In this document: one piece after another, positions 6,615-25,240 of the stretch
How the letters are laid out: every line of letters begins with the position of its first letter
How positions within the stretch are numbered: the first letter of the stretch is position 1
The notes under the pieces: model-generated
What the model saw: the letters and a program-made list of their open reading frames with translations, nothing else
The model's database searches: none
What the model was told of the DNA's origin: nothing
Position numbers and translations under genes: made by a program
IMG/VR virus record: IMGVR_UViG_3300044720_000028
Location: 1 to 28,635 of that record
Strand: one strand, 5' to 3'
Source of the DNA: a virus
Length of the DNA stretch: 28,635 nucleotides

Positions 6615-6633
6615 CTCCGCTCCTCTCGTTCCG

Positions 6634-6691: not shown

Positions 6692-6705
6692 GTCAAACGC
6701 GCTGC

Positions 6706-7843: not shown

Positions 7844-7884
7844 CTGGTCCAGACTTTACCTGCATAGCGAGGGCGTACTAGTAG
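7844..7884 (+). promoter_or_regulatory. late promoter P1 (terminase-portal)
   Basis: A 23-base block (7844-7866) identical to that at 11852-11874. It contains the 15-base core GACTTTACCTGCATA (7852-7866), shared also with 25200-25214. The AT-containing block TACTAGTAG (7876-7884) follows and runs into GGGG. In all three copies the block ends TAGGG, 14-15 bases after the core. The core is longer than a normal -35 and unlike TTGACA, so a phage-specific factor is likely. It lies upstream of the small terminase. Confidence 0.75.
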
Positions 7885-8056
7885 GGGAGGGAAGGGGGAA
7901 GAACCACCTTCCCGACATCGCGAGGAGCGAGGCTCGACGAGAGCCCGAAGGAGAGGGCAAATCGCCTCTCCCCAGATGATTCCCCGAACCAGTGCGCCGG
8001 GCGGACCCGCCGCGGCGCTTCCTAGTAGCCGAGTCGCACCACACCGGGGTACCGCC
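7885..8056 (+). other. structured leader of the terminase transcript
   Basis: No gene in these 172 bases. Four stem-loops follow P1: GGGAAGG/CCTTCCC (7889-7913), GGCTC/GAGCC (7931-7945), GGAGAGG/CCTCTCC (7950-7971), and GCGCCG/CGGCGC (7995-8019) continued by GGCG/CGCC past a one-base bulge. None has a U run. The leader may act in translation control of the terminase genes or, as DNA, in packaging recognition. Confidence 0.5.
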
Positions 8057-8371
8057 ATGCCGTGGACGCCTGACGAAGCCAAAGCCAACGCCTCCCTGGG
8101 GGGCAAGGCCGCGGCAGCCCGCGGCAAGGCCCGGCGCCAGATGCCGGTTGTGGAAAGAGCGCGCAAAGCGTTGGAGGACGCGACCGGGCAAGCGGCCAAG
8201 GCTCTTGTAGACGCGGCCCTCGGCCAGAACGGCTTCGAGGACCTCGACGTCGGTGAGCGACTGAAGGCCGTCCTGAAGGTGCTCGACTATGGCCTCGGCC
8301 GACCGGCGACCAACAAGCCCGAGGAGAAGCCCCCTGCTGAAGGTGAGCAGAGCGGACTGGCCCTTTCCTAG
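8057..8371 (+). CDS. probable terminase small subunit
   Basis: A 104-residue protein. ATG 8057 is preferred over the earlier in-frame ATG 7976 because upstream codons fall in the hairpin-rich leader; the ribosome binding site (GGGG) is modest. The N-terminus (MPWTPDEAKANASLGGKAAA) is basic and helix-turn-helix-like. The middle helices (QMPVVERARKALEDATGQAA, GERLKAVLKVLDYGLGRP) resemble the terminase small-subunit pattern ending in a GxGRP turn, and a charged disordered tail follows. Small terminases recognise phage DNA and load the large subunit. The call rests mainly on position directly before the large terminase and this helical pattern; sequence similarity is weak. Confidence 0.6.
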   Translation: MPWTPDEAKANASLGGKAAAARGKARRQMPVVERARKALEDATGQAAKALVDAALGQNGFEDLDVGERLKAVLKVLDYGLGRPATNKPEEKPPAEGEQSGLALS

Positions 8372-8377
8372 GACCCG

Positions 8378-9919
8378 ATGAAGACCATCAAGCTGACCGA
8401 GTTCTGGACGGTCGACGGGGTCCTGGATGAGAAGGGCCGGCCTCGCCAGTTCGACACCCCCGAAGAGGCGGCCCAGCACGGCGAGCCCCGCCGGCACGGC
8501 GCTCAGAAGGACTTCGTCCTGACAGACGCCCGCTACGCCGGGTACATCGGCGGCCTGGGCTCAGGGAAGACCTTCGCCGGCGTGGCCCGCGGCCTCGCCT
8601 TCTCTCAGCAGCCGAAGCCGCCCGGGACCCTGCACGGGGCCCGCGGCCTCTGTGGCGCCATCTCGTACCCCGTCCTCCGGGACGTGGTCATCCCGGTCTT
8701 CCACGAGCTTATCGAGGGGACCGGCCTGATGGGCCCCCACGGGTACTCGAAGTCGGAGAAGAAGGCGACCCTGAAGAATGGGGCCGAAATCCTGTTCCGC
8801 TCCCTCGACAACCCGAACAGCATCCGTGGTGTCGAGCTGAGCTGGTTCTTCATCGACGAGGGACGCCACCTGTCCCGCGAGGCCTTCGACATCCTGAACG
8901 GCCGCCTGCGGCAGCCCGGCTTCGCCCACGCGGGCTGGGTCGCCTCCACACCGAACGGGTACGACTGGATGTGGTCCCTGCTCCACCCGGACTCCCCGGA
9001 CCAGTACGAGGGGGCCGAGTTCTTCGAGGCCAGCACGTACGACAACCGGCGCCACCTGCCGGCGCAGTACATCGACGAGCTGGACGCGACGTACGAGGGC
9101 AAGTGGCACGAGCAGGAGGTCCTGGGTCGGTTCGTCGGCCTGATGACCGGGTCCGCGCTCCCCTCGTGGCGCCCCGAGGTCGGCCTGGCTGACCTGGAAT
9201 ACGACCCGGACTTGCCCCTCTTCAGCACCTGGGACTTCGGCATCGGGGACCTGGGCGTGTGCGAGTTCGCCCAGATAGCGACCACCGAGCGCCGGATGCC
9301 TGATGGCTCGAAGCAGTACGTGCCCGAGCTTCGGGTGCTGGACCTCATCGAGTCGCAGGACTGGTCCATCGACGAGTGGGCCCTGGCCTTTGAGTCCAAG
9401 CTGGCGGACCGCTTCGGCGGTCACCGCCCGGTCCGCTCCTGGGGCGACCCCGCCGGCAAGCAGCGGAGCATGGTGACGGGCACATCCGTCATCGACGCGC
9501 TTGCCTCGAAGGGCATCTCGGTCGGCGCCGCACGGAAGCAGAACCACGACCTGGGCCTCCTCATCCTCGACAACATGATGGCCGGTGGCCGGGTCAAGGT
9601 GGACCGGCGCCACTGCACGCGCCTCTCCGCGGCGGCCAGCACGCACCACTTCCCGACCGACGAGAACGGGAACCGCATGAGCAACACCCCCGTTCACGAC
9701 TGGACCTCCCACTTCATCGATGCGCTGAGGTACCTCGCCACGTCCGAGCTGAGCCTGCACTTCAACCAGTCCGCGCCTCCGCGGCCCGCCCAACCAGGGG
9801 CAGGCACGATGGGGGCGCTCATGGCTGAGCTGACCAGGAAGCCCGAATCGTGGCTCGGCGTCCCGCAGACCAAGACCGGCCTCTGGGTGCCGGGCACCCT
9901 AGGAGTCCCGAATGGCTAG
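8378..9919 (+). CDS. terL: terminase large subunit
   Basis: A 513-residue ATPase-nuclease that packages DNA through the portal and cuts it. Walker A GGLGSGKT is at 58-65, Walker B WFFIDEG at 156-162, and an ASTPNG coupling motif at 189-194. The C-terminal RNase H-like nuclease has acidic residues at TWDFG (Asp286), GDPAG (Asp357) and DWTSHFIDAL (Asp441, Asp448). Length and motif order match full-length large terminases. ATG 8378 follows AGGA at 8370-8373. The gene starts six bases after the small terminase and overlaps the portal gene by eight bases, a standard packaging operon. Confidence 0.95.
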   Translation: MKTIKLTEFWTVDGVLDEKGRPRQFDTPEEAAQHGEPRRHGAQKDFVLTDARYAGYIGGLGSGKTFAGVARGLAFSQQPKPPGTLHGARGLCGAISYPVLRDVVIPVFHELIEGTGLMGPHGYSKSEKKATLKNGAEILFRSLDNPNSIRGVELSWFFIDEGRHLSREAFDILNGRLRQPGFAHAGWVASTPNGYDWMWSLLHPDSPDQYEGAEFFEASTYDNRRHLPAQYIDELDATYEGKWHEQEVLGRFVGLMTGSALPSWRPEVGLADLEYDPDLPLFSTWDFGIGDLGVCEFAQIATTERRMPDGSKQYVPELRVLDLIESQDWSIDEWALAFESKLADRFGGHRPVRSWGDPAGKQRSMVTGTSVIDALASKGISVGAARKQNHDLGLLILDNMMAGGRVKVDRRHCTRLSAAASTHHFPTDENGNRMSNTPVHDWTSHFIDALRYLATSELSLHFNQSAPPRPAQPGAGTMGALMAELTRKPESWLGVPQTKTGLWVPGTLGVPNG

Positions 9920-11846
9920 CCCCGACCAGTACAAGGTCTACAAGGACCCGGCCACCAAGCTGAAGGTCTACCGGGACCGCATCGCCCGCGCCGAGAAGGA
10001 ACTGGACAAGCGCCGGCCGGCGGCAGCCGACGCCTTCAAGCGGTACCGGAACGACCCTCGCGAGGACACGGTCTCCCCGGGGGGCCACCAGGTGGCCGTC
10101 CCGGATGGCATCGGTGTCGTCGACACGATGTACTCCTCGCTGACCGCCGTCGAGGTCGACGTGCAGGTCACCCCGCACGCGGGGTCGCGAGACCAGGCCA
10201 GGGCAACGCAGCAGGCCCTCTCGAACGAGGCTCGCATCATCAAGGTGAACGAGCGAGTGGCCCCTGCCGTGAAGGACGCCATCCTGGTCGACGCCGGCTT
10301 CGTGAAGACGGCCTACGAGTACGCGGACCAGGTCATGGAGGTCGACCGGGACCCCGAGCACATCGCGGCCGATGCGAGGGGCCTCATACAGGCCGCCTCC
10401 CTGGCCGGGGAGAAGGTGCCGACGCCCGACGAGATTGCCTCGGTCGTTCCCGCGACCGAGGAGCAGACGGTAGTCCTGAAGGACCGCATCGTGGTCGACT
10501 ACGTCCCGTGGGACATGATGCTGTGGGACCCGGACGTGAAGCGGTGGGAGGACGTGGGCTGGGTGGCCCAGAAGTCCGTCGTCCCGCTGGAGGACGTCAC
10601 TGAGAACCCGGCCTTCAAGGCCTACGCCGAGAAGAACAAGGGCCAGTCGAAGAAGCTGGAGAAGCTGAAGGGTGACTCCTCGACGGACCGGGACGGCAAG
10701 TGGGTGGAGGCGGCCGGGGACTACATCACCCTGTACGAGGTCTATGACCTCCGCGCCGGCACGGTCTGCACCATCACGAAGAACGCCGACTTCATCCTTG
10801 ACGAGCGGCCGAATACGTTCGCCCTCTTCCCAGACCTGGAGGACCGCAACCCGTTCTCCCGGTACGTGGAGCGCACCGACCCGGAGAAGGTGACCGGCAT
10901 CGGGGACATGCGCGTCATCATGCCTTCCCTGCACGAGCTGGACCTGTACAGGAGCAGACTGGCCCTCTACCTCGACCGGAGCGTACCGAAGCTCGTCGGC
11001 CCCGAGGGTGGCCTCACCGACGCCGGCAAGGCGGCGCTGGAGAGTCGCGAGTGGGGCGCGTACGTGGAGCTGACCAAGAGCACCAACGGCCAGGAGGTCC
11101 GGCCGCTGGAGGTCCCGCAGCTCCCGCAGGAGATGTTCAACGTCCCGGACAAGATTCAGGGCTCCATCCTGGAGGCGACCGGGACGAACGAAATCCTCCG
11201 CGGCCTGTTCAGTGACCACCGCACGTCGGCCACCGAGGTCAACGCGGTGGGCCAGGCGAGCGGAGTCCGGCAGGCCGAGAAGCAGAACGGCCTGGAGGCG
11301 TTCTACCACAGCATCTTCAAGCGCGTGCTGGTCCTGATGCAGGTGTTCTACGACCAGGAGCGCGTCGTGCGCCTAGTCGAGCACGAGGGCGACGTGCAGT
11401 GGAAGTGGTCGAACCAGGACATCGTCCTGGGGGCGGACCTCGAAGTCTCCCTCACGCCGAAGGAGCCGAACACCCTGGAGTCCCGCCAGCAGCGGGCCTT
11501 CCAGTGGTTCAACCTCCTGGCCCCTGCGGCTGTCCAAGGCGGGCCAATCGACCTGTCGAAGATGACTCTCTGGGCTCTCCAGGAGTCCGGTTTCCGCATG
11601 GAGGACATCCGGTCCTTCGTCAAGACGGACGAGCAGCAGCAGCAGGCGCAGCAGGCGGCCATGCAGCAGGCGGCGCAGGGCGCGGCGGCTCAGGCTCAGG
11701 GCGCAGCGGCCGGCCAGGCCGCGGGCGCACCGGCGGACGCCGGCGGCGGGCTCCCCGCACCGGTGGCCTCCTCGCTCGGGTCCAGCCTCGTCCGGCCCAT
11801 CACGCCGGCCGACGCGAACAACGAGCAGACCATCTTCACCCCGTAA
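9912..11846 (+). CDS. portal protein
   Basis: A 644-residue protein beginning MASPDQYKVYKDPATKLKVY inside the end of the terminase gene. It has the layout of a portal subunit of a short-tailed phage: a mixed alpha/beta body with VDYVPWDMMLWDPDVKRWED (about 196-215), where a strand-loop of this kind is typical of portal wing regions. Long helices in the last third include a probable stem/tunnel helix (DKIQGSILEATGTNEILRG). A low-complexity Gln/Ala-rich tail (about 575-620) precedes a polar C-terminus. Twelve copies would form the DNA entry ring that receives the terminase and later the adaptor. Position directly after the large terminase and before the scaffold supports the call. Confidence 0.88.
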   Translation: MASPDQYKVYKDPATKLKVYRDRIARAEKELDKRRPAAADAFKRYRNDPREDTVSPGGHQVAVPDGIGVVDTMYSSLTAVEVDVQVTPHAGSRDQARATQQALSNEARIIKVNERVAPAVKDAILVDAGFVKTAYEYADQVMEVDRDPEHIAADARGLIQAASLAGEKVPTPDEIASVVPATEEQTVVLKDRIVVDYVPWDMMLWDPDVKRWEDVGWVAQKSVVPLEDVTENPAFKAYAEKNKGQSKKLEKLKGDSSTDRDGKWVEAAGDYITLYEVYDLRAGTVCTITKNADFILDERPNTFALFPDLEDRNPFSRYVERTDPEKVTGIGDMRVIMPSLHELDLYRSRLALYLDRSVPKLVGPEGGLTDAGKAALESREWGAYVELTKSTNGQEVRPLEVPQLPQEMFNVPDKIQGSILEATGTNEILRGLFSDHRTSATEVNAVGQASGVRQAEKQNGLEAFYHSIFKRVLVLMQVFYDQERVVRLVEHEGDVQWKWSNQDIVLGADLEVSLTPKEPNTLESRQQRAFQWFNLLAPAAVQGGPIDLSKMTLWALQESGFRMEDIRSFVKTDEQQQQAQQAAMQQAAQGAAAQAQGAAAGQAAGAPADAGGGLPAPVASSLGSSLVRPITPADANNEQTIFTP

Positions 11847-11851
11847 ACGCC

Positions 11852-11892
11852 CTGGTCCAGACTTTACCTGCATAGGCCAGGTAGGTATATAG
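11852..11892 (+). promoter_or_regulatory. late promoter P2 (scaffold-capsid)
   Basis: The same 23-base block as P1 (11852-11874) with core GACTTTACCTGCATA at 11860-11874. TATATAG follows at 11886-11892, ending in TAGGGG. It begins six bases after the portal stop. It would add transcripts for scaffold and capsid, proteins needed in large amounts, on top of read-through from P1. Confidence 0.78.
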
Positions 11893-12273
11893 GGGGCAGA
11901 TGCCGGTCCTGGAACCCTCGGACGAAGCCCGACATGGCGTGGAGTGCGGAAGACGAGGACACGCCCTTCCCGGACAGACACCGACCCGCTATCTTGCTCG
12001 GGAGGTCCCTCCAAGGACACCAGGGTGGCTATGCCGCCCGTTGACACCGGAGGGACCTCTAGGCAGGAACCGGACCCCCGACCCACTCCTCCCGACCGGG
12101 AGCCGCCCCGCTGAGAAGTGGGACGACGGCACAGCGTCGGACTGCGGCGGCCTCCACCCTCCTCTCCAGGCCGCCAGTCTTCTGCCCCAACACCGAGGCA
12201 GAACCAGCCCCGTGCAAGGGGCAGGAACCCGCGCCGAGCGCCCTTCGAGGCAACAGCGCAGCAAGGGGTCCCA
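11893..12273 (+). ncRNA. stem-loop-rich untranslated RNA before the scaffold gene
   Basis: 381 bases without a convincing gene. Stems: GGCGTG/CACGCC (11936-11965); an 11-bp stem GAGGTCCCTCC 12002-12012 with 12049-12059 enclosing GGGTGGC/GCCGCCC (12023-12039); CCCACT 12082-12087 with AGTGGG 12117-12122 enclosing CTCCC/GGGAG (12089-12102); CGACG/CGTCG (12124-12139); GACT plus GGCGGCCT with AGGCCGCC plus AGTC (12140-12179); TTCTGCC/GGCAGAA (12180-12203); GCCCC/GGGGC (12207-12222). The last five domains are separated by at most a few unpaired bases. It may be a structured leader or a separate RNA. A frame open from ATG 11900 is judged non-coding by its rare codons. Confidence 0.5.
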
Positions 12274-13242
12274 ATGCCAGAAGCACCCCGCCCCGACATG
12301 CTCGCCGCACTGACGGCGGCCATCGGGGACACGAACCTCGTCGTCGAACCGGAGGAAGGGACAGCCCCCGAGGCCGAGCCCGAACCCGGCGAAGGCGCCG
12401 AAGCCCTCAGCTCCGAGGGTGGTACGTCTGACGCAGGAGCCGAAACGCCGGCAGGCTCAGGGTCCGAGGGCACCAGCCCAGACCGTGGCGAGCCTCCCGA
12501 ATCGTACTTCGGCCTCTCGCTCAAAGACCTCGACCGCGACACCGCCTGGGCCATCATCGACAGGGTGTCCGAGCAGGACAAGGTCATCCAGCAGGTGCAG
12601 CGCGACCGCGCCGAGCTTCGCAAGCAGCTCGACGAACAGGGCACATCCGCACCTGCCCCGAAGACCGAGTCTCCGACCGAGCTGTCCGACGAGGACATCA
12701 TGCGAGCCGCCGGGTACGACCCGGACGACCCGATGTACGACGTGGTCTCCTCGATGGTTCTCCCCATCCTGAAGCAGGTCCAGCCCCTCCGAAACGAGGT
12801 CCAGGAGTTGCGACAGGCGCGAGAGCTGGAGGAAGCCGCCCTGTTCTGGGACGGCCGCCTCACCGCTCTGGAGACCGAGCACGGGGTCATCCCCGGGCCG
12901 GACGGCAAGCCCATGTCCCACGAGGACATCTTCCGCTACGCGGCCCAGAACAACCTTCTGGACCCGGACCTGGCCTACCACCGCATGACCGCGGGCGGGC
13001 GCCAGGCGACCTCTGAGGCGGTACTGGCCGAGGCCAGGGCCCTCATCGAGAGGAAGCGGGAGCAGGGCGGAACGGTACGACCGAGGACTGGCGCTCCCGT
13101 GAAGACCACGGTGGTGTCCGGTCAGGACTCCGATGGCAAGGACCGGTCACTGACCGACGTCATCAAGGAGGCCGCACGGTTGGCCGAACAGGAGACCGGC
13201 TTCAAGTGGGCAGACACGGTCGGCCCAGGCGCCACCGACTAG
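12274..13242 (+). CDS. capsid scaffolding protein
   Basis: A 322-residue protein beginning MPEAPRPDMLAALTAAIGDT; ATG 12274 has AGGGG at good spacing, and the in-frame extension upstream reads through the structured RNA. The N-terminal 75 residues are acidic and disordered (Glu, Pro, Ala, Gly). A long helical part with coiled-coil potential follows (about 95-200: DRVSEQDKVIQQVQRDRAEL, EVQELRQARELEEAALFWDG). A further helical part and a basic C-terminal region precede ETGFKWADTV. This layout is typical of scaffolds, which bind capsid subunits through a basic C-terminal helix-turn-helix and leave the procapsid. Its position just before the major capsid gene supports this. Confidence 0.85.
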   Translation: MPEAPRPDMLAALTAAIGDTNLVVEPEEGTAPEAEPEPGEGAEALSSEGGTSDAGAETPAGSGSEGTSPDRGEPPESYFGLSLKDLDRDTAWAIIDRVSEQDKVIQQVQRDRAELRKQLDEQGTSAPAPKTESPTELSDEDIMRAAGYDPDDPMYDVVSSMVLPILKQVQPLRNEVQELRQARELEEAALFWDGRLTALETEHGVIPGPDGKPMSHEDIFRYAAQNNLLDPDLAYHRMTAGGRQATSEAVLAEARALIERKREQGGTVRPRTGAPVKTTVVSGQDSDGKDRSLTDVIKEAARLAEQETGFKWADTVGPGATD

Positions 13243-13261
13243 CCACTACGGAGCAACGACA

Positions 13262-14245
13262 ATGGCAACCCCAGCTTCCCAGCTCGACCAGCTCATCGCC
13301 ACGACCTTCCAGAAGGTCAAGGGCGTCCTGAGCGACCAGATTACGCGGAACACCGCGCTTCTGGCGTTCCTGAACAGCAAGTCCAAGGTCACCGAGGACG
13401 GCGGACTCGAAATCCGCCGGCCGCTGATGTACGCGCTGAACAACACCGTGAAGTCGTACGACGGGTACGACCTGCTCGACACCACGCCGCAGGGCGGGTT
13501 CGGGTACGCGGTGTACAACTGGCGCCAGTTCGCGGGCTCGCTGACCATCGACGGCAAGACCGAGCGCATCAACATGGGCTCCGCGGCCATCATCAAGCTG
13601 ATGGCGGCCAAGATGGAGCAGCTGCGGCTGTCCTTCGAGGACGCGCTGACGACCATGCTGTACTCGGACGGAACCGGCAACAGCGGCAAGGACCTCCTCG
13701 GCCTCCAGGCCATCGTGACGGATTCGGGCACCCTCGGCGGTGTCGACTCCTCGACCGAGACCTGGTGGAAGTCGAAGGTCGTGGGCGCGGTGTCCGGCGC
13801 GGTCGGCATCGACCTGACCACCGACGCGGGCATCAAGCAGATGAACAACGTGTACAACAGCGTGTCCATCGCGAAGTCCCACGTCGACCTGGAGCTGACC
13901 ACGCAGGCCGTGTTCGAGGCCTACGAGGCCCTGGCAGAGGCGCACATCCGGTTCACCAGCACCAGCATGGCGGACCTGGGCTTCGAGTCCATCGCCCACA
14001 AGCGGGCGAACCTGGTCTTCGACGCCTACGCCCCGGCCCCCGCGGGCTCGGACGGTGGGTTCCTGTACTTCCTGAACAGCGACCGCCTGGAGTTCGTGCA
14101 GCACTCCGCGGCTTGGATGAAGGACCTGGACTTCGTCCGGCCCGCCAACCAGGACGCGAAGTCGGCGCTCGTCGTGTCGATGGGTAACCTCATCACCGAC
14201 AACCGCCGGTCGCACGCCGTGTCCAAGCGGACGAAGGTCAGCTAA
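13262..14245 (+). CDS. major capsid protein
   Basis: A 327-residue protein beginning MATPASQLDQLIATTFQKVK, with GGAG upstream of ATG 13262. It shows the order expected of an HK97-fold coat. An N-terminal helix (ATTFQKVKGVLSDQITRN) is followed by an E-loop-like beta part (GGLEIRRPLMYALNNTVKSY). A long spine helix comes next (NMGSAAIIKLMAAKMEQLRL, SFEDALTTMLY). A glycine-rich turn introduces the GLQAIV region common in phage coats, followed by the P-domain and a C-terminal part (RANLVFDAYAP, FLYFLNSDRLEF). Position after the scaffold and the length agree. It forms the icosahedral shell. A terminator-like hairpin follows directly. Confidence 0.92.
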   Translation: MATPASQLDQLIATTFQKVKGVLSDQITRNTALLAFLNSKSKVTEDGGLEIRRPLMYALNNTVKSYDGYDLLDTTPQGGFGYAVYNWRQFAGSLTIDGKTERINMGSAAIIKLMAAKMEQLRLSFEDALTTMLYSDGTGNSGKDLLGLQAIVTDSGTLGGVDSSTETWWKSKVVGAVSGAVGIDLTTDAGIKQMNNVYNSVSIAKSHVDLELTTQAVFEAYEALAEAHIRFTSTSMADLGFESIAHKRANLVFDAYAPAPAGSDGGFLYFLNSDRLEFVQHSAAWMKDLDFVRPANQDAKSALVVSMGNLITDNRRSHAVSKRTKVS

Positions 14246-14258
14246 CAGACGCCAGTGG

Positions 14259-14283
14259 GGGAGCCCTTCGGGGCTCCCTTATT
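14259..14283 (+). terminator. UUCG-capped hairpin after the major capsid gene
   Basis: GGGAGCCC (14259-14266), loop TTCG, GGGCTCCC (14271-14278), then TTATT. The C(UUCG)G loop is exceptionally stable. With a short U-rich tail it looks like a partial terminator that lets some transcription continue, giving excess capsid over the later genes. The next gene's ribosome binding site is just downstream. Confidence 0.75.
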
Positions 14284-14299
14284 GGAGCCAGGAGCCCCA

Positions 14300-15031
14300 A
14301 TGCCCATCCGAGACTTCATCCCAGAAGGCGAAGAGAAGACCCCCGCGGAGCGGGCGGCCTTCGAGGCCCGTGGCGGCATCTCGCTCGGGCGCGTTCGCCC
14401 GGACTTCATCCCCGGCCCGGAAGACGACAAGGTCGTCGACCGCACCGAGGACGAGAAGAACGACGTCGCTCGCGAAGCGGCGGTGAAGGCCGCCCAGGTC
14501 GACGAGGACACGCGCCGGGCCTACGCGAAGGAGAAGCTGGCGAAGCTCTCCGTGAGCGCGGCCATCGACTTCATCGAGGGGCTGAGCCCCTCCGAACGCG
14601 AGCGGTTCGTCAAGGTCGAACGAGACAACCGACAGCGCATCGCCATCCTGAAGCGGTTCCACAGCTTCCCAGATGACGCTTCACGCGAGGACGACCCCAT
14701 CTCAGAACCTCCCGCGGAGGGGGACGTTGTGGGGAAGGACGGGGATGCCGACACCCCGGCCGGCGGCGAGACAGGGTCGGCCGATTCATCGGTCGAAGCT
14801 GCGGCAGCCGATGCCGGTGTTCCGGCCGGCTCTGTCGAGACCGTTGCGGACCCGCCCAACGCGGACGGCGAGCACGCCAATCCCGGCGACCAGGTCGAAG
14901 ACGAGGGCGACAAGCCCCCGCGGGTCGACTGGCTGACCGAGACCAAGTCCAAGGAAGGTACCGTCGAGCCGGTAGCCTCCGCGAACGCCCCGAAACAGCA
15001 GCGCAGGACCCGCGCTCGGGACAAGGAGTAA
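14300..15031 (+). CDS. acidic capsid-associated protein of unknown role
   Basis: A 243-residue protein; ATG 14300 has GGAG upstream, while the earlier in-frame ATG 14255 would lie inside the terminator. The N-terminal half is charged and helical (EEKTPAERAAFEARGG, KNDVAREAAVKAAQVDEDTR, SAAIDFIEGLSPSERERFVK). The C-terminal half is disordered and rich in Asp, Glu, Gly, Pro and Ala, ending in a basic KQQRRTRARDKE. No family is recognised. Lying between the coat and a decoration-like protein, it may be a minor head protein or assembly factor (inference). It is not a repeat of the scaffold. Confidence 0.7.
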   Translation: MPIRDFIPEGEEKTPAERAAFEARGGISLGRVRPDFIPGPEDDKVVDRTEDEKNDVAREAAVKAAQVDEDTRRAYAKEKLAKLSVSAAIDFIEGLSPSERERFVKVERDNRQRIAILKRFHSFPDDASREDDPISEPPAEGDVVGKDGDADTPAGGETGSADSSVEAAAADAGVPAGSVETVADPPNADGEHANPGDQVEDEGDKPPRVDWLTETKSKEGTVEPVASANAPKQQRRTRARDKE

Positions 15032-15034
15032 CCC

Positions 15035-15508
15035 ATGCCCGTCGACGAACACCTTCACACCAACGGCGACCCGCTGGACCTGGAGAACGAGACCTACTTC
15101 AAGACGGGTACCGCTCAGGGTGAGCCCCTGTACGTCGGCGGCATCCGGCAGGACTCCAGTGGCTCGGCCGGCGCAGGAGCCGACGCGGCGAACTACAACG
15201 CCGGCTTCCTGGGGACGGACGCGAACGTCGCCCCTCCGACCGCGGTCACCATCGCGACCGGGGCCGGCGCGGCCGGGACCATCTCGGTGACCTTCACGCT
15301 CCCCGCGGGCGCGTCGGCCGAAGAGGTCCTCGTGTACCTGAACTCGACCGGCGAGTTCGTGAAGAAGCTCGACATGACCGCGACCAACACGCCCGCCCTG
15401 ACCGGCCTGACGCCGGCCACGTCCTACGACGTGCGGCTGCGGACCATCATGTCGGACGGCCGGCTCGGCCGCTTCACGAACAAGACGACCGTCACCAGCC
15501 ACGCCTAG
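15035..15508 (+). CDS. decoration-like protein with fibronectin type III domain
   Basis: A 157-residue protein beginning MPVDEHLHTNGDPLDLENET. The N-terminal 60 residues are extended and polar (TYFKTGTAQGEPLYVGGIRQ). Residues 67-157 form an immunoglobulin-like fold with fibronectin type III character: PPTAVTIATG, ISVTFTLPAGASAEEVLVYL, TGLTPATSYDVRLRTI and a final strand. Phages often display such domains on capsid decoration or tail proteins, where they bind weakly to cell or mucus glycans. Position next to the major capsid gene favours a head decoration protein. The domain call is strong, the location on the particle is inferred. Confidence 0.75.
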   Translation: MPVDEHLHTNGDPLDLENETYFKTGTAQGEPLYVGGIRQDSSGSAGAGADAANYNAGFLGTDANVAPPTAVTIATGAGAAGTISVTFTLPAGASAEEVLVYLNSTGEFVKKLDMTATNTPALTGLTPATSYDVRLRTIMSDGRLGRFTNKTTVTSHA

Positions 15509-15517
15509 TACCACGAT

Positions 15518-15563
15518 GCAGCCCCGCCCCGCAAGTGCCCCTACGGGCCGGGGGCGGGGCTGC
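15518..15563 (+). terminator. 13-bp hairpin between decoration and zinc-ribbon genes
   Basis: GCAGCCCCGCCCC (15518-15530) pairs perfectly with GGGGCGGGGCTGC (15551-15563). The loop holds GCCC/GGGC as a small second stem. Only CTTCATCTC follows, so there is no real U run. It may be an attenuator or an RNA-stabilising structure at the 3' end of the head-gene messages. Confidence 0.6.
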
Positions 15564-15583
15564 CTTCATCTCGGGGAGTGAAC

Positions 15584-17528: not shown

Positions 17529-17533
17529 CCCCT

Positions 17534-19237
17534 GTGCGCTGGCTCGGGCACGACATCTTCAAGTACGAGGTCGGCGGTAACCCGGTAACGGGTTACGGCC
17601 TACTCGTGTTCACCGACGCCGACCGCACGGTACCGGCGGTCGTGTACGACAGCCCGCTGGCGGCCGGCGCCGTCGAGGTCCCGCAGCCCATCGAGGGGGA
17701 CGACCGTTCGATGGTGAACCTGTACATGGTCCCGGGCCACTACTACTTCACCGTGACCGACAACGGCGGCTCCGCGGCCGACCTCCTGACGACGAACAGC
17801 GTGGCGTTCGACGACGACACCAGCATCGACTACGCCATCCAGCCGAACATGGCGAACTGGAACGGACTGGAGCTGTTCAGCCTGAACGCCTACGGCGCGA
17901 AGGACGGGGACACGGCAGCCAACAAGACGGCGGTGCGACTGGCCTTCGGAGACCTGGTCGCCAACGGCAGTGGCTTCCTGTACCTGCCGCACGGCAACTA
18001 CGACCTCGACGACGTCACGTACCAGGGGGACGAAGTCGTCCACCTGGACGACACGCTGGGCCCGTTCCGCCTCGGTGGGGACGGCAAGGGTCTCTCCGTC
18101 ATCCGTCAGACGGGGGACTGGGGAGGCGACAACAACTTCCTCTCCGCGCTCGGCCGGCACAACGTGTCGAACGACTTTCGGCGCCTCGACGACATGGTGG
18201 ACAACATCACCATCCAGGGCGACCGGACGTACATCGGCAACGGCATCGGCATGTGGCAGGAGGAGAACCTGGTCATCCGGGACGTGGCCCTGAACGACTT
18301 TCGCGGCACGGCCTTGAAGTTCACGTCCGTCAGGGCCCCCTTCGTTCGCGGGCTGACCATCGCCCGCAGCGGAGACCGCGCTACCAGCTCCCCGGCCCTG
18401 TGGCTGTCGAACAGCGACGAGGGCGGCACCGTCGTCGGCCACACCGAAGACGGCGACATGCAGGTCGTGGTGCGGGACAGCTACGACGTGGGCATCTACT
18501 CACGCGGCAGCCTGCGGATGAAGGTAGCCGCGCTGGTCAGTGGCTCGGCGCTGGACAAGCCGGCGGTGAGCCTCCTGGACGACCAGCTGGGCGACTGGCG
18601 CATCCGAGGCAAGGGCGCCGGTAAGAGCATCGTCGAGGTCCGAAGCACCAATCCGCTGCGGGCCTACGGCACGCGCATCACCGGCTCCTACGACGGCGCC
18701 GGGGCCTGGGGAGTGCGCTTCATTCAGGCCTTCCCGGCCGACTCCCAGTTCCCGGGGTACGTTGTGGACGGCGCTGCCGGACTCGAAACGGCGAACGCGA
18801 GCGGGGGCTTCAGCCTTCCCGAGACCGACGACGTCATCCTCGCGGCGACCGCCCGCTCGAACGACACGCCGAAGTGGGACCGCGCACGTCGCTCTGACCC
18901 CAACGTCGTGAACGTGAACGTGGCGAACCTCGGCACGTATGCGCCGGACCTGTCGAAGGGGACGAAGTTCGTCATCACGGCCACGACCAATGGCGGCGCG
19001 TCGGCCATCACCATCGCGGACCCCATCAACGGGTACGAGGGCCTGCCCTTCCGCATCATGGTCGTGAACAACGCGGGCGGGGTCCTGACCATCACCTGGG
19101 GCGCTGGCTACAAGTTCCCCGCCGCGGGCTGCACTCAGGCTACGCGAGCGCCGGCGAACACGAAGAAGACCGGCACCATCTTCGACAAGACGGCGAACGG
19201 CGCTGATTGCGTCGGCTGCTCCGGGGGCGACATCTAG
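17534..19237 (+). CDS. tailspike with right-handed beta-helix (pectate lyase-like)
   Basis: A 567-residue protein starting at GTG 17534. Residues 1-100 form a beta-rich N-terminal domain (GYGLLVFTDADRTVPAVVYD, GHYYFTVTDNGG) that may attach to the virion. From about 114 the sequence FSLNAYGAKDGDTAANKTAV, then GFLYLPHGNYDL, is the start of the Pectate_lyase_3 type beta-helix. It continues with parallel-strand repeats (DNITIQGDRTYI, NLVIRDVALNDF, RGLTIARSGDRA, MQVVVRDSYDVG). A C-terminal domain (about 455-567) ends in a Cys-rich segment. Tailspikes of this kind bind and often cut surface polysaccharide. Catalytic residues cannot be assigned by reading. Confidence 0.85.
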   Translation: MRWLGHDIFKYEVGGNPVTGYGLLVFTDADRTVPAVVYDSPLAAGAVEVPQPIEGDDRSMVNLYMVPGHYYFTVTDNGGSAADLLTTNSVAFDDDTSIDYAIQPNMANWNGLELFSLNAYGAKDGDTAANKTAVRLAFGDLVANGSGFLYLPHGNYDLDDVTYQGDEVVHLDDTLGPFRLGGDGKGLSVIRQTGDWGGDNNFLSALGRHNVSNDFRRLDDMVDNITIQGDRTYIGNGIGMWQEENLVIRDVALNDFRGTALKFTSVRAPFVRGLTIARSGDRATSSPALWLSNSDEGGTVVGHTEDGDMQVVVRDSYDVGIYSRGSLRMKVAALVSGSALDKPAVSLLDDQLGDWRIRGKGAGKSIVEVRSTNPLRAYGTRITGSYDGAGAWGVRFIQAFPADSQFPGYVVDGAAGLETANASGGFSLPETDDVILAATARSNDTPKWDRARRSDPNVVNVNVANLGTYAPDLSKGTKFVITATTNGGASAITIADPINGYEGLPFRIMVVNNAGGVLTITWGAGYKFPAAGCTQATRAPANTKKTGTIFDKTANGADCVGCSGGDI

Positions 19238-19259
19238 TGCGGCACGCAGGGAGCAGCTA

Positions 19260-20480
19260 GTGGCAATCCACACCACCACCAACTGGCAGGGGCTGTTCTT
19301 CGGCGCCGGCGGGTCGAACCGTCTGAACACGGTCGACGTCGACCCCCTGGACCTCAGTCCCTCGGATGCCGCTACGCTCCACACCCTGTGGACGTACGTG
19401 CCGAGCGGCGGCGGGTACGTGGGGAACGCTCCCATCGTCGTCGCCAACGGTGCGAAGCTCATCGTCGGTGGGGACGACGCGAAGCTCCGCGTCCTGGACG
19501 CGAACACCGCGAACCCCGCGGGGTCACAGCTCCAGTCGAGCACGTTGGGTGGCGCCATCAAGACCACGGCGTACTCGGACCTGACGAACGTGTATGTTGG
19601 GGCCGACGACAGCAAGCTCTACGCTCGCACGGTGGCAGACATCACCGCCACCGCGGCCGGCTGGGCCGGACCCTACACGAGCACGGGCCAAGTCCACACG
19701 AGCCCCAACGTGTCGGGCGGCAAGGTCCTGTTCGGGAACGACGCGGGGGTCTACTACCAGGTCAACGTCGCAGACGGGACCCTGGACTGGTCGTACTCCG
19801 GCGGGGCAGTGCTGACTGGCGCCTTCACGGGCGGGGTGGCCGTCTACGGCGGCCATGCCTTCGTCGCCAACGAGAACGGGTACCTCTACGAGTTCGACGT
19901 CGCGGGCAAGACGCTGGTCCGCACGTACTTCATGGGCGGCCCGGTCGCGACCCCCTCCATCGCCGCCTGGGGCGGCATCCCGCTCCTCATGGTGGGGTCC
20001 GAGGACCACGCGCTGAACGCCTTCCTCATCCAGACGACGGTCGTCGGGAACCGCACCTACGCGGCCGGGGACCGGGTCTGGGAGGACATCGAGAGCGGGG
20101 ACGTGTTCTCGGCGCCGGCGCAGGACCCCAGCTCCGGGTACGCGGTTCGCGGCACGCACAACTGGTCCTTCCAGGTCTTCTTCGGCACCAGCGGCTTCAT
20201 GCGCTGGAAGCAGGACGGCGGGTCCGGGTCCGGCTGCAAGGGCGCCGCGTTCACCGCCCACCCCGGCATCACGAACGGGTTGGCGTACAACACCTACGCG
20301 GGGCCGGACGGCCGCATCAAGGTCTTCCAGCTCTCGGACACGCCAGGTGGGCACAGCGCCCTGTTCAAGGACCCGAGTGACTGCGGGACGAGCACGTTCC
20401 AGGACGGCTCACCCATCGTCGTGAACAACACACTCTACGTGGTGGACAACGTCGGCACCATCCATGCCTACAAGAGGTAG
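19260..20480 (+). CDS. PQQ/quinoprotein-type beta-propeller virion protein
   Basis: A 406-residue protein; GTG 19260 overlaps the in-frame TAG (19258-19260) of short upstream sequence, with GGGAGCA upstream. It contains repeated propeller blades in the order seen in PQQ/BamB-like proteins: PIVVANGAKLIVGGDDAKLR, NVYVGADDSKLYARTV, GKVLFGNDAGVYYQVNVADG, GHAFVANENGYLYEFDVAGK and finally GSPIVVNNTLYVVDNVGTIH. The blade signature is a short strand, Gly/Asn turn and D-x-L-Y/V-x-x-D. No signal peptide is seen. Two cysteines occur late (GCKG, DCGT). It probably forms a seven- or eight-bladed disc in an appendage; binding a host surface ligand is inferred. Confidence 0.75.
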   Translation: MAIHTTTNWQGLFFGAGGSNRLNTVDVDPLDLSPSDAATLHTLWTYVPSGGGYVGNAPIVVANGAKLIVGGDDAKLRVLDANTANPAGSQLQSSTLGGAIKTTAYSDLTNVYVGADDSKLYARTVADITATAAGWAGPYTSTGQVHTSPNVSGGKVLFGNDAGVYYQVNVADGTLDWSYSGGAVLTGAFTGGVAVYGGHAFVANENGYLYEFDVAGKTLVRTYFMGGPVATPSIAAWGGIPLLMVGSEDHALNAFLIQTTVVGNRTYAAGDRVWEDIESGDVFSAPAQDPSSGYAVRGTHNWSFQVFFGTSGFMRWKQDGGSGSGCKGAAFTAHPGITNGLAYNTYAGPDGRIKVFQLSDTPGGHSALFKDPSDCGTSTFQDGSPIVVNNTLYVVDNVGTIHAYKR

Positions 20481-20486
20481 CCAGCT

Positions 20487-21329
20487 GTGATTGAGGGACT
20501 GTCCCTACCATCCGGCCTCGGCGGCGGCGGTGACTCGCCGCTGAACGACGGCCCGAGCCTCTGCGGGTACCGCGAGGAGATTCGGTCGCGGCTCGGGGAG
20601 AGCACGGAGAACGCGGACTTCTGGTCGGAGGCGCAAGTCGACCGTGCCATCAACGAAGCCCTGCGTCGGTTCTCCCGCGAGCAGCGGTGGAGCTGGCTCT
20701 ACACGTCCGTCGAGGGCGTGGTCATCCCGGCAGACACGAAGACCCTCGCGCTCCAGCCCGAGGTCGCAGCGCACCGGCACCTGAACCTGTCGGCCGTTCG
20801 CGCCGGCGACTCGAACATCATGCCCTTCCGCCGGGTGGCTCCGAACGTGGGCTTCGACCTGCGAAGGACGTACGAACGCACCGGGGTCTCCATCAATGGG
20901 TACACGACCTGGTACTACCTGGAGTCGGCCGCGCTCGGCCCGGGGGACGGCAGTACGCCGGGCCCCATGACCTGGGTCATTCGCCTCGTGCCCCCGCCGG
21001 ACGTGGAGTACGTGCTGGACTACCAGTTCATCCGCAACCCGGCGAAGCTGGTAGCCTGTGGAGACATCGGGGACATCCCCGGCGTCTACTCAGAGGCCGT
21101 GAACAGCTGGGCCACCGGTACCCTGTGGCTGGCCGAGCTGAACGGGGGCTCGAAGGCCCAGGAGCAGTTCAACATCTACGCCTCCGTGCTGGAGCAGGCC
21201 CAGAACGACGAGACCGGCTCCATCCCCGACACCATCGTGAGGTGGGGCGGCGCTGAGCCGCAACTGGAGCAGCCCCTGACCGGCGACCTCTGGTCTCGGC
21301 TCCATATGCCCGGGACGTTGGGGCCCTAG
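20487..21329 (+). CDS. head-tail adaptor protein
   Basis: A 280-residue protein starting at GTG 20487. After a glycine-rich start it is a helical bundle (YREEIRSRLGESTENADFWS, AQVDRAINEALRRFSREQRW), a hydrophobic strand (WSWLYTSVEGVVIPADTKTL), and a beta part. It ends in a helix (SKAQEQFNIYASVLEQAQND). The beginning matches the layout of podovirus adaptors (P22 gp4-like), where a short helical repeat binds under the portal: an N-terminal Arg/Glu-rich helix, DxAINEALR, then Trp-rich strands. It would dock below the portal ring and above the nozzle. Confidence 0.7.
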   Translation: MIEGLSLPSGLGGGGDSPLNDGPSLCGYREEIRSRLGESTENADFWSEAQVDRAINEALRRFSREQRWSWLYTSVEGVVIPADTKTLALQPEVAAHRHLNLSAVRAGDSNIMPFRRVAPNVGFDLRRTYERTGVSINGYTTWYYLESAALGPGDGSTPGPMTWVIRLVPPPDVEYVLDYQFIRNPAKLVACGDIGDIPGVYSEAVNSWATGTLWLAELNGGSKAQEQFNIYASVLEQAQNDETGSIPDTIVRWGGAEPQLEQPLTGDLWSRLHMPGTLGP

Positions 21330-21626
21330 ATGGGCCTGCCACACGTCATCACGAAGGGCGTCATCGAGAGCGACAAGGCGGCCCAGGCGTTCCAGCAGAA
21401 CTTCGAGGAGCTGGACGGGCGACTTGCCCGGTTGTCCAACCCTGGCAAGACCCCCGATTCAGGCAATCCGCTCCCGAACGTCTTCGACCTCTCCATCGAC
21501 GACGCCCCCGTCAACCCGGAAGCCGGCACGCTCCGCATCTACGTGCGGGACAACGGCGCCGGCAAGGCGCAGCTCGTCGTGAAGGACAGCAGCGGGGTCG
21601 TCACGGTCCTCGCGACGGAGACCTAG
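21330..21626 (+). CDS. small appendage protein with RxYVRDNGxGKxQ-like motif
   Basis: A 98-residue protein; ATG 21330 follows the adaptor stop with no gap. It begins MGLPHVITKGVIESDKAAQA, then a helix (FQQNFEELDGRLARL), then a strand-rich end (GTLRIYVRDNGAGKAQLVVK, DSSGVVTVLATE). The latter is a turn often found at the base of phage fibre and minor tail proteins. A trimeric helical stalk plus small head is plausible. Position between adaptor and the secreted-homologue gene favours a structural connector. Confidence 0.65.
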   Translation: MGLPHVITKGVIESDKAAQAFQQNFEELDGRLARLSNPGKTPDSGNPLPNVFDLSIDDAPVNPEAGTLRIYVRDNGAGKAQLVVKDSSGVVTVLATET

Positions 21627-22541
21627 TTGACTCCATACCTCGCCTTCGCCAGCTCCCCCTGGAACGTCGACATCTCCGCGGCTCCAGCGGACGCGCACAG
21701 CGCGGACATCATCGCTTGGATGAAGGCAGACGCCAGTCAGCTCAATCTGAACCTGTCCGGCGTGAACGGCACAGGGGCCTGGGGCACGCCCATCTACTGG
21801 GCAGCCACGACTGACATCGCCTACAATGTCAGGCCGTCAGATGGCGGGAACTGCGGCAAGCTGCCGCCCGAGTTCGCCTCCGTCCGCATCCCGAATGGGG
21901 CCAAGCCGAGCATCGACACGGACGCTCACATGGTGGTGTTCGACGCGGCGGCCGGCATGGTCTACTCGTTCTGGCGGGCGGCGGTCACGCAGTCGCCTAC
22001 CCCTTCCGTCGTCACGGACAGCACCATCTGGACTACCTGCCAGGGCGCAGTCTACTACCTCGCCAGTAACGGCCTCGCCGGTTCCCTTCCCGAGAGCAAT
22101 GAGGCGCGGAACCAGGGGCACAGAGGACTGGCGCCTTCCGTGTTCGCGGTTCGCAAGGACGAGACCGACTTCGGTACCATCGCCCACGCGCTGCGGATGC
22201 TGGTGAACACGACCAAGGCGGCCCACGTCTTCCCCATGAGCGGCGACGAAGGCGGCACGACCGCCACGTATGCGCCGCCCGAGGGCACGCGGGTTCGAAT
22301 CAAGGCCTCCGTCGACCTGGCCGCTCGCGGCCTGGCCGGTGCGGCGCTCGTCGTCGGGACCGCCCTGAAGACCTACGGCGCGGTCATCGGGGACCAGAAC
22401 AGCGGTCCTCCCTCCATCATGGTCGAGAACGGCGTGGCCGAAACGGGCAGCAACATCTGGGCCGGCGTCCTGACGCCGACCAGCCTGAAGGCCATCACCC
22501 TGGACGACTTCGAGGTCGTCCAGCTCGGCTACGGGGCCTAG
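21627..22541 (+). CDS. homologue of secreted bacterial surface-type protein (304 residues)
   Basis: Starts at TTG 21627, immediately after the previous stop; no nearer start fits. It has a bacterial secreted-protein look: SAAPADAHSADIIAWMKADA, a GTPIYWAA motif, GAKPSIDTDAHMVVFDAAAG, SFWRAAVTQ, GHRGLAPSVFAVRKDET, IAHALRMLV, and a strongly conserved-looking end (RIKASVDLAARGLAGAALVV, LKTYGAVIGD, FEVVQLG). From memory this order matches a family of extracellular proteins in Actinobacteria and myxobacteria with no established function. No signal peptide remains. As a virion protein it may attach to or cut host surface polymers; catalytic residues are not identified. Confidence 0.6.
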   Translation: MTPYLAFASSPWNVDISAAPADAHSADIIAWMKADASQLNLNLSGVNGTGAWGTPIYWAATTDIAYNVRPSDGGNCGKLPPEFASVRIPNGAKPSIDTDAHMVVFDAAAGMVYSFWRAAVTQSPTPSVVTDSTIWTTCQGAVYYLASNGLAGSLPESNEARNQGHRGLAPSVFAVRKDETDFGTIAHALRMLVNTTKAAHVFPMSGDEGGTTATYAPPEGTRVRIKASVDLAARGLAGAALVVGTALKTYGAVIGDQNSGPPSIMVENGVAETGSNIWAGVLTPTSLKAITLDDFEVVQLGYGA

Positions 22542-22543
22542 AC

Positions 22544-25186
22544 ATGCCGGGACTCACCACAGCACCGAACGTCATCGAGCAGACCGACTTCAGTGGCGGC
22601 TGGCGGCCGGACGAAGAGGCCGCAGCGGTCCCACCGAACGGTCTGCTCGCTGCGTTGAACCTCCTACCCGACGTGGGCTCGGTGGTGCCGCAGGTCCGCA
22701 AGGGCTTCAAGCGGCTCGCGGAGGTCCTTCAGGGGTACCGCATCGAGAGCATCCACCCATACAACCGGCTCACCGGTGACAAGGCCGGCCAGTACCTCAT
22801 GCTGGTGCTGACGAACCACCTGGATGGTGTGCCGGACAACGTGCAGCTCTGGTCGCTGAACCTCGCCACGAGCGAGGTCAAGCGCCGGGACACGACCAGC
22901 GTGGCCTGGAACTCGGCGGACGGCCATCACTACGGGCTGACCATCAACCAGACCTTCTTCGGGGGCGGCCCTGGCGACCCGATGTACTCCTGGAACCCGG
23001 TCGACGGGTATGACCGCAACCCGAGCGGCCAGGACTTCCCGGTCCTGGTGAACAGCAACGACCCGGGGACAGGGCAAGTCGCTCACAACTTCGCCTTCCT
23101 GAAGGAGACCAAGGTCCTCTACACGGACCCCCTGACCGGCATCCAGCAGGCCTACATCGTGTCGGCCGAGGCCGGCGGGGTGACGCCGGGGCGGAACCGG
23201 TTCAAGCTCTGGGACGACGGCGGGGTTCACTACGACAAGGACGAGCTGGTCTCGCACGAAATCACGGACGGGGTCTCTGGCAAGACCTACCTCCGCAGCT
23301 TCTCTGCTCGCGTGGCACACACGTCCGGCCCGGCGAAGGACCCGGGCGGTGGCGCCGGCTACTGGGACGCGCATGACCTGGACCTACCGCGGGACGACGA
23401 GGGCGAGGTCACGGACGACTGGGACATCGTCCCCATCGCCGCGACGACGAATGTGGCCGCGTGGCACGCCGACCGCATGTTCCTGCGGTACGACAACCAC
23501 ACCGACTCGGGCGAGAGCCTGCTCCAGTACAGCTTCCCCCTGGAACCCGACGCCGGCGGTGACATCGGCAAGTTCGTCTGGGACCCCACGAACTTCTCCC
23601 CCGTCAAGGACGAGGACACGGGAGACCACGGAGGCTGGGAGCCGGTCCACACGGGCGACGGCGACAAGCTGACGGCCCTGCTCGACTACGGGTACTACCT
23701 CATCATCGCCAAGCGGCGGACGACCTTCGTCCTAGCTGGCCTCTCCCCCGAGACCTGGGTCCTGCGGAAGCTCGGTAACGTGGGAGGCATCTCCTCGCGG
23801 GCTATCGCGGAACACGAAGGGCAGGTCTACATCCTGTCCGACCGCGGCCTGTACGTCACGGACGGGACGCAGCTCATCGAGGCGCCCGGCGCGGAGCGGG
23901 CTCGCGACTGGCTGCGCCAGGCGGTGAGCTGGGAACAGACCCAGGCGGACGGGACCGTCGTCGACCGCGAGGTCACCATGTGGTCCTTCGGCGGGTACCT
24001 CTGGGCATCGGTCCCGACCACGTCCTCGTACCAGCCCGACCGGGTACTGGTGTACGACGCGAACACGAAGTCCCTGTGGCTCCAGAAGCTGGCCGTGGAG
24101 GCCGCGGCCGTGTCGCGCATCGACGGCGTGGAGGAGCTGTTCTTCTCCTCGCCCACGCAGGTCGGTGAGCAGGTGGGCGCGACGGTCGCATGGGACGGCG
24201 TCCCCGGCCGCAGCACCAGCACGCGCACGCTGGGCGACGTCACCGAGCGGAACCTGTGGGCCAATCCGTCCTTCTCCGTCCTGAAGAACGAGACCCTGAC
24301 GAAGGCTCGGGACAACAGCGGGTGGGCGAAGCACGACTCGAACGCAGACTGGCGCCTCTCCCCGACCGCGGCCCTGGACGGGCCGGTAGGGGCCGTCATC
24401 CACAACACCAACAAGCCCGAGGGCGCCTTCACCGGCATCGGCCGCTCCTTCACGGACGAAAGCAGCGACCTCCACACCCTCTCGGCCTACGTGCGGCCGG
24501 CCGCGTGGAAGACCCGCGGCGCCCGGGCGGACTACTCGAACTTCCGCTTCACGGTGGGCGGGGACGCGCTCCCCGAGTGGCGGCACCACTACCAGTACAT
24601 CGGCCACGGCTGGACTCGGGCTTGGGCGCAGTACACGGGCGACCCGACCGTCGAGCGACCGCACGGCATCAGCAACCTGGGGAACACCACCTTCGAGGTC
24701 GACAAGCTGCTCGCAGAGGGCCAGGGTGGCAGCTCGCGGCCGTGGTTCGACGGTGACCGGACGGACGACATCTCGGGTACCGCCGGCGGGGACATCGGCA
24801 TCGTCTACCAGTACAACCACCCGGACGTGCAGGAGACCCCCACTGACGACCAGGGCCAGGAGGACTACTCCTCCGAGGACATCGGCTGGTCCTTCCGTAC
24901 CGCGTGGTTCCCCTTCGGGATGGTCCACGAGGTCCGGCGCATCAGGCGCATCTGGGCGGTCATCCGTGGCGCCGTGATGACGACCATACGCGGGTACCGG
25001 AACTTCGTCGATGACCCCGTGTTCGAGAAGGACCGGGACGCCCCGGACCCGACGAACTTCGTCGAGGGCCTGAAGATGCCCGACAGCTTCGCCGTGTCCT
25101 TCGAGGTCGAGGGCGTCGGCGCACCGGCCTCGGTGCTGGGAGTGGCCGCAGACACGCAGCCGCGGCGCATCGTGTACCACCACTAA
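22544..25186 (+). CDS. large nozzle-like tail protein with inserted carbohydrate-binding-like domain
   Basis: An 880-residue protein beginning MPGLTTAPNVIEQTDFSGGW. The start FSGGW, then a polar stretch, then NLLPDVGSVVPQVRKGFKRL matches the opening of podovirus nozzle/stabilisation proteins. Propeller-like repeats of strands follow (QYLMLVLTNHLDG, YIVSAEAGGVT, MFLRYDNHTDSG, YYLIIAKRRTTFVLAGL, VYILSDRGLYVTDG). From about 565 to 738 it reads as a jelly-roll module of carbohydrate-binding type: NLWANPSFSVL, TLSAYVRPAAWKTRGA, TTFEVDKLLAEGQG. The C-terminus returns to the nozzle. It closes the tail tip under the adaptor; the insertion may contact the host surface. Confidence 0.7.
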   Translation: MPGLTTAPNVIEQTDFSGGWRPDEEAAAVPPNGLLAALNLLPDVGSVVPQVRKGFKRLAEVLQGYRIESIHPYNRLTGDKAGQYLMLVLTNHLDGVPDNVQLWSLNLATSEVKRRDTTSVAWNSADGHHYGLTINQTFFGGGPGDPMYSWNPVDGYDRNPSGQDFPVLVNSNDPGTGQVAHNFAFLKETKVLYTDPLTGIQQAYIVSAEAGGVTPGRNRFKLWDDGGVHYDKDELVSHEITDGVSGKTYLRSFSARVAHTSGPAKDPGGGAGYWDAHDLDLPRDDEGEVTDDWDIVPIAATTNVAAWHADRMFLRYDNHTDSGESLLQYSFPLEPDAGGDIGKFVWDPTNFSPVKDEDTGDHGGWEPVHTGDGDKLTALLDYGYYLIIAKRRTTFVLAGLSPETWVLRKLGNVGGISSRAIAEHEGQVYILSDRGLYVTDGTQLIEAPGAERARDWLRQAVSWEQTQADGTVVDREVTMWSFGGYLWASVPTTSSYQPDRVLVYDANTKSLWLQKLAVEAAAVSRIDGVEELFFSSPTQVGEQVGATVAWDGVPGRSTSTRTLGDVTERNLWANPSFSVLKNETLTKARDNSGWAKHDSNADWRLSPTAALDGPVGAVIHNTNKPEGAFTGIGRSFTDESSDLHTLSAYVRPAAWKTRGARADYSNFRFTVGGDALPEWRHHYQYIGHGWTRAWAQYTGDPTVERPHGISNLGNTTFEVDKLLAEGQGGSSRPWFDGDRTDDISGTAGGDIGIVYQYNHPDVQETPTDDQGQEDYSSEDIGWSFRTAWFPFGMVHEVRRIRRIWAVIRGAVMTTIRGYRNFVDDPVFEKDRDAPDPTNFVEGLKMPDSFAVSFEVEGVGAPASVLGVAADTQPRRIVYHH

Positions 25187-25199
25187 CGGCGCAGGTCAG

Positions 25200-25235
25200 G
25201 ACTTTACCTGCATAACCGGATGGTATAGTAGGGAG
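25200..25235 (+). promoter_or_regulatory. late promoter P3 (ejection/lysozyme cluster)
   Basis: Core GACTTTACCTGCATA (25200-25214), identical to P1 and P2 but without the wider 23-base identity, followed by TATAGTAG (25224-25231) running into GGG. It lies between the nozzle stop and the lysozyme gene. The GGGAG right after it is also the ribosome binding site, so this transcript has almost no leader, unlike P1 and P2. Confidence 0.75.
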
Positions 25236-25240
25236 CTAAC

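Follow-up and report, generated by a model that had tools for sequence, protein, structure and literature searches.

The window analyzed here is IMG/VR record IMGVR_UViG_3300044720_000028 at its full length of 28,635 bases, probably a fragment of a larger viral genome, and it carries three copies of a 15-base motif, GACTTTACCTGCATA, each lying ahead of a functional cluster of genes. We find that these three sites are very probably phage promoters and that, across the relatives of this virus, the position of such putative promoters is kept without their sequence being kept.

The motif GACTTTACCTGCATA occurs exactly at 7852-7866, 11860-11874 and 25200-25214, all on the plus strand, whereas shuffles of the window expect 0.04 sites and three copies were reached in 0 of 100 shuffles. 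The claim that prompted this work, an earlier note made from the letters of the window, had reported these three positions and no other copy on either strand, and this holds with up to three mismatches allowed. All three copies are intergenic (intergenic DNA makes up 10.6% of the window according to a purpose-written codon-usage gene caller), and each faces the gene downstream. Copy 1 sits before the terminase-portal genes, in the gap ahead of a gene at the small-terminase position, with the next plus-strand gene 178 nucleotides on; copy 2 lies in the portal-scaffold gap, directly behind the portal stop codon at 11846; and copy 3 lies directly behind the stop codon of the open reading frame (ORF) at 22544-25186 and before a transglycosylase-like ORF, with the next plus-strand gene 14 nucleotides past the scanned motif. 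The labels first given to the clusters (terminase-portal, scaffold-capsid and ejection-lysozyme) are essentially right, the third cluster holding a transglycosylase-like ORF and a VanY-type peptidase gene. Copies 1 and 2 are indeed identical, over 24 bases (CTGGTCCAGACTTTACCTGCATAG, 7844-7867 and 11852-11875), which is one more than the 23 first counted, and TAGGG comes 15 bases after the core in copy 1 and 14 bases after it in copies 2 and 3, within the 14-15 bases first given.

Downstream of each core we read in the sequence, and aligned with sites of the wider family, a -10-like box with a start region, all on the plus strand: TACTAGTAGGG at 7876-7886, TATATAGGG at 11885-11893 and TATAGTAGGG at 25224-25233. 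Sites of the family have a common layout, in which an extended -35-like block of some 15 nucleotides is followed, after a spacer, by a TAnTAnT box with (A)GAGGG behind it, and in the MAFFT alignment the block itself appears as a T-rich stretch followed by a GGGTTG- or CCTG-like center. Written as bacterial promoters, the sites of the window place TTTACC near -33, running on to TGCATA, and then 15-17 bp to TATAGT, TACTAG or TATATA. They have what a bipartite promoter of the bacterial type has, namely a -35-side and a -10-side block at near-fixed spacing and facing a gene. They do not have what a host sigmaA promoter has, because TTTACC at 15-17 bp from the box does not match a TTGACA-like hexamer, 17 bp and a TATAAT-like hexamer, so that the motif is, as first proposed, unlike the host consensus. 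In those relatives that do contain TTG, just 8-12 bp or so separate the TTG hexamer from the TAnTnT box (spacings read by eye). A T4 late promoter is a poor description as well, given the conserved 15-nucleotide block on the -35 side.

To look for equivalents in relatives, of which an alignment search found about 60 contigs whose large terminases are clearly related, we compared in each the DNA upstream of the large terminase with the portal-scaffold gap, with transfer RNA (tRNA) genes masked. A plus-strand block shared by the two slots stands far above shuffles and the reverse-strand control in the window and in G016, G002, L072, L101, L005, L050, L092, L118 and L103, and G022 does not exceed the best shuffle, yet its two slots share an exact repeat of 15 bases. 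The blocks vary by lineage, for example GCGTTTTCCTTGTGCT...GGTATAACTAGAGG in L050, TCGGTGTACA..GGGGTGTTAGAGTAG in G002 and ATGTACCTTGACGCGCTCACCTACGTAGTGA in L005, and in 12 further IMG/VR phage contigs other motifs recur between genes, at these slots before the small terminase and between portal and scaffold. The motif of G021 was missed by this comparison and came from a search for intergenic repeats, one copy lying before the small terminase and the rest before replication genes. When each of 13 records was scanned with its own motif, 33 distinct copies were obtained (the terminal repeat of G016 counted once), all of them intergenic, and wherever the downstream gene is present on the record, it and the copy that faces it are on one strand, also for the minus-strand copies in G002 and G021; shuffles gave none. 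Because the motifs were defined from these copies, copy number is no independent test; placement and direction are. Exact matches to the 15-mer of the window in 44 IMG/VR contigs were considered as related sites and set aside as chance, since these contigs are mostly A+T-rich and the sites are without the flanking layout.

The slots are best seen in the three larger relatives G016 (motif CCCTGTNNNNNNCACCTACCTGT), G021 (motif CCTGACANAACCYACTATWGTG) and G002, the motifs of which are unrelated. In each of the three, copies precede the small-terminase gene and the gene ahead of the DnaB helicase, and another marks where the replication genes start. The family A DNA polymerase is likewise preceded by a copy in G016 and G021, and the portal-scaffold gap holds one in G016 and G002, where none was seen in G021. 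The large terminases of the relatives are about 45-66% identical, and the putative promoter sequences before the same genes are mostly unrelated: between G002 and G021, terminases are 66% identical and blocks 22% identical, which is about background. The earlier note had named the motif a late promoter, and of this the promoter-like behavior stands, in that the sites are intergenic, face the next gene and have equivalents in the same slots of relatives. The presence of equivalent motifs before replication genes makes "late" too narrow and points to a general phage promoter.

Next, we considered what might read these sites. The window encodes on its minus strand, at 1307-1756, a protein that matches sigma-70 region 4 above the cut-off (PF04545, 5.6e-7); it is 149 amino acids by the gene call, and the open frame runs to 1825 or beyond. 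An AlphaFold2 model built from a four-sequence alignment has, for residues 41-140, a mean predicted local distance difference test score of 75-90 in each block of ten residues, with a low-confidence N-terminus, and the best Foldseek matches in the PDB are -35-binding sigma domains with a probability of about 1. Region 4 proteins are also present in nine larger relatives (G002, G003, G004, G009, G012, G016, G020, G021 and G023), and among relatives above 30 kb only G019 (43 kb), together with the shorter G005 and G018, gave none; these three are also without a recognizable site, and G005 and G018 are incomplete. Sigma region 2 (PF04542) had no match in 13 records while the control was detected in 10 known genomes, and we therefore speak of a region 4 protein and not of a full sigma factor. 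The earlier suggestion of a phage-specific recognition factor is thus plausible with this protein as the candidate. The CTGGTC upstream of the core has to be set apart as a separate element. Since both the type of the protein and the genomes in which it occurs fit, we favor the view that the phage region 4 protein reads the sites, which we consider probable.

In the mechanism that we propose, the region 4 protein would redirect the host RNA polymerase core to the three sites, its helix-turn-helix contacting the extended -35 block GACTTTACCTGCATA and holding the polymerase there. The TAnTAnT box would then serve as the -10 element and be melted with the help of region 2 of the host sigma factor, and RNA would start in or just after the GGG run, giving transcripts for terminase-portal, scaffold-capsid and transglycosylase-peptidase genes. 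Kept positions with replaced sequence would follow if protein and promoters diverged jointly.

A less likely but still appreciable alternative is that the sites are promoters whose 15-nucleotide block is read by some other phage or host activator together with ordinary host sigma, with the region 4 protein regulating something else. The block does reach further downstream than a -35 hexamer, and a separate element directly adjoins the core on its upstream side, namely CTGGTCCA at 7844-7851 in copy 1, resembling the Actinomycetota intergenic motif AAAACCGCAGGTCAGAG; CTGGTCCA at 11852-11859 in copy 2, where TAAACGCC precedes it; and CAGGTCAG at 25192-25199 in copy 3, about 31 bp upstream of the -10 box (all on the plus strand). 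We treat this CTGGTC element, including its form CAGGTCAG in copy 3, as a separate element of the AAAACCGCAGGTCAGAG type. The motif AAAACCGCAGGTCAGAG and its variants are common in both orientations in Actinomycetota genomes (at loci L192 and L264, for example), which supply most of the matches listed, and in their phages, and they sometimes lie directly after tRNA genes. The element lies upstream of most late-slot copies, in either orientation: a loose pattern matches within 60 bases at 25 of 31 sites, and the two late copies of G016 carry it in opposite orientations. However, it is not visible at the replication-gene copies of G016, G021 and G002, and among transcription factors we found only the region 4 protein to be common to the larger relatives; no WhiB was found in 13 records. 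Open-access papers yielded nothing usable either on the CAGGTCAG element or on promoters of actinophages. As a separate observation, an inverted pair of AAAACCGCAGGTCAGAG-type elements is present in L082 at 206-258.

If the repeats were instead operators or other protein-binding sites, for a repressor, packaging or recombination, their being intergenic would be natural, as would the widespread, orientation-free element beside them. We consider this improbable because the direction of the copies strictly agrees with the downstream gene, with separate copies for each direction in the divergent gaps of G016, G021 and G002, because a -10-like box stands at near-fixed distance, and because there are several copies per genome where a single one is expected for a packaging site. 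More improbable still is that the sites are read by a single-subunit RNA polymerase of the phage, either T7-like or highly divergent, starting at the GGG run. A TATA-like box followed by GGG or GAGGG does resemble T7 and SP6 promoters. T7-like promoters, however, are one contiguous block from about -17 to +6, and here the 15-mer ends 14-15 nucleotides upstream of TAGGG, which places the most conserved block beyond -18 from the GGG, outside that footprint. Searches of the replication genes of G016 and G021 gave a DNA polymerase and no RNA polymerase, the giant late protein matches none, and there was no match to RNA_pol (PF00940) in 15 records, a weak point since the control genomes are without this family. 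Chance, or recent duplication without function, can be dismissed as scarcely credible, because the 24-base identity of copies 1 and 2, which could mark a recent copy event, is accompanied by equivalent repeats in the same slots of relatives and by a copy 3 that shares mainly core and box, as expected if the core is selectively conserved.

Returning to the region 4 protein as reader, we asked whether it changes with the promoter. G004 and G020 have near-identical recognition helices and identical portal-gap sites, and in the pair G012 and G023, whose helices are similar at 71% identity, the sites share a AAAAGTGGTTGTG block. Over nine genomes, helix identity correlates with block identity (r 0.67), and a partial Mantel test on terminase identity gives r 0.42 with p 0.0034. 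Co-divergence of reader and promoters is thus suggestive, as is the broader picture of viruses that may repeatedly re-code their own gene switches, and we do not count the correlation as proof because it is significant only through the two close pairs.

Several observations weigh against our interpretation. Without one member of each close pair the correlation just described falls to r 0.10. Many relatives are without a clear site, L102 is marginal in the comparison of the two slots, and the sites of G004, G020, G003, L079, G023, G012 and G009 were chosen by eye. The profile search of relatives that the earlier note had called for succeeded in placement and fell short in reach: only 2 of 28 held-out contigs rise above the shuffle-based threshold, a low sensitivity, and both matches have the layout of the family and lie ahead of the terminase, in the gap where a site would be expected. 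The three copies of the window do not fully agree in their spacing to the box (a difference of 1-2 bp), and their -10 boxes, TACTAGT, TATATA and TATAGT, are imperfect. As for the reader, the Foldseek E-values exceed 0.1, the domain being short, and the sigma homology of the G009 protein is weak, only distantly similar. We offer only tentatively, as something short of an even chance, the full proposal that in an uncultivated family of actinobacterial phages a stand-alone region 4 protein redirects host polymerase, and that protein and promoters have been re-coded together many times at fixed positions to give potentially orthogonal pairs.

Most genes of the window to the left of 7.6 kb are on the minus strand, and to the right follows a plus-strand structural module with large terminase, portal, scaffold (by position), capsid and tail genes. 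The transglycosylase-like ORF behind copy 3 (25241-26029, plus strand) has an Rpf-like domain and matches PF06737 slightly below the cut-off, and a VanY-type peptidase follows at 26802-27545 in the plus-strand module; a DUF7178 protein (PF23802, 2.9e-43), also present in G002, G009, G016 and G021, is encoded at 6937-7530 on the minus strand. The closest relatives are uncultivated; the first two IMG/VR contigs have capsids 60% and 51% identical to that of the window. GenBank phages searched with terminase, capsid and region 4 protein gave only distant terminase and capsid relatives and no region 4 relative, so there is no cultured close relative with transcription data, and a terminase-based search for relatives in host genomes found none. 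The distribution of the AAAACCGCAGGTCAGAG element and the Rpf-like domain suggest an actinobacterial host.

A number of other features were seen along the way. The minus-strand part of the window contains nine copies of a stem-loop between 2040 and 6710, one per gap ahead of nine minus-strand genes. Each has an outer stem and an inner one of about 9-11 bp, with a 2x2 internal loop (CA/GA) between them in the majority of copies. The stems vary with compensating changes (GCTCG/CGAGC, CTCCG/CGGAG, GCTTG/CAAGC), folding z-scores were -3.3 to -6.9 for the six copies folded, and Rfam gave no match; the stem-loops may act in early transcripts, as a leader or in processing. tRNA genes behind copy 2, suspected from an antisense reading and from relatives, were not found in the window. 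The 9.7-kb contig L005 has 21 tRNA genes, at 589-2245 and 6291-6695 in its terminase and portal-scaffold gaps, and G002, G018 and G021 have 21 each. In the portal-scaffold gaps of a subclade (G012, G023, G009 and L107) there is a partly degenerate TTCACGnnnnnCGTGAA-like palindrome, a possible regulator site, and G020 has between 34665 and 40622 several intergenic copies of a 20-25-nucleotide repeat, GTTACTGCAGATGGTGAAACGCTAC, unlike its portal-gap site and possibly an iteron or a second promoter class. Giant late proteins of about 1900-2050 amino acids are encoded in G016 (19810-25431, with a ParB-like domain at residues 1212-1283), G021 (23285-29458), G012 (27682-33489) and G004 (25746-31664); the window ends near the expected position of such a gene.

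A regulator that acts at many sites should evolve slowly, since any change in it must be matched at each of them. If our proposal is true, these phages would provide a tractable case of a regulon changing its code and would supply candidate orthogonal promoter systems for use in actinobacteria; they would also show how regulatory sites can be recognized in phages that have no cultured members. That a phage protein redirects host polymerase is already known from SPO1 and T4, and in the open-access literature we found no description of a protein with region 4 alone whose promoters have been re-coded repeatedly while their positions stayed fixed. The late regulators of the Q/ArpU type have a region 4-like helix-turn-helix, and the window protein matches phage antitermination Q families weakly, far below the cut-off (E 0.1 and 0.08); they act at one late promoter, whereas the putative promoters here are multiple, dispersed and, in relatives, on both strands. 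T7-like promoters likewise have an A+T box before a G run and diverge in sequence between relatives, but no such polymerase was found here and the conserved block lies too far upstream. In T4 middle transcription, AsiA and MotA alter recognition on the -35 side while region 2 of host sigma still reads the -10 element, much as we propose, although the window candidate carries a region 4 domain of its own; homologs of AsiA or MotA were not seen, in searches not aimed at them. T4 late transcription also uses partial sigma-like proteins, gp55 and gp33, with host core polymerase, but T4 late promoters consist of a -10 element only, TATAAATA, and gp55 is region 2-like, in contrast to the longest conserved block of the window, which is on the -35 side, and its region 4-like protein. 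In SPO1, gp28 and gp33/34 are phage-encoded sigma factors that redirect host polymerase to phage promoters, as a sigma-homologous protein is proposed to do here; unlike SPO1, the family of the window has region 4 only, with region 2 found in none of its records, and the sequences of its putative promoters differ while their positions persist.

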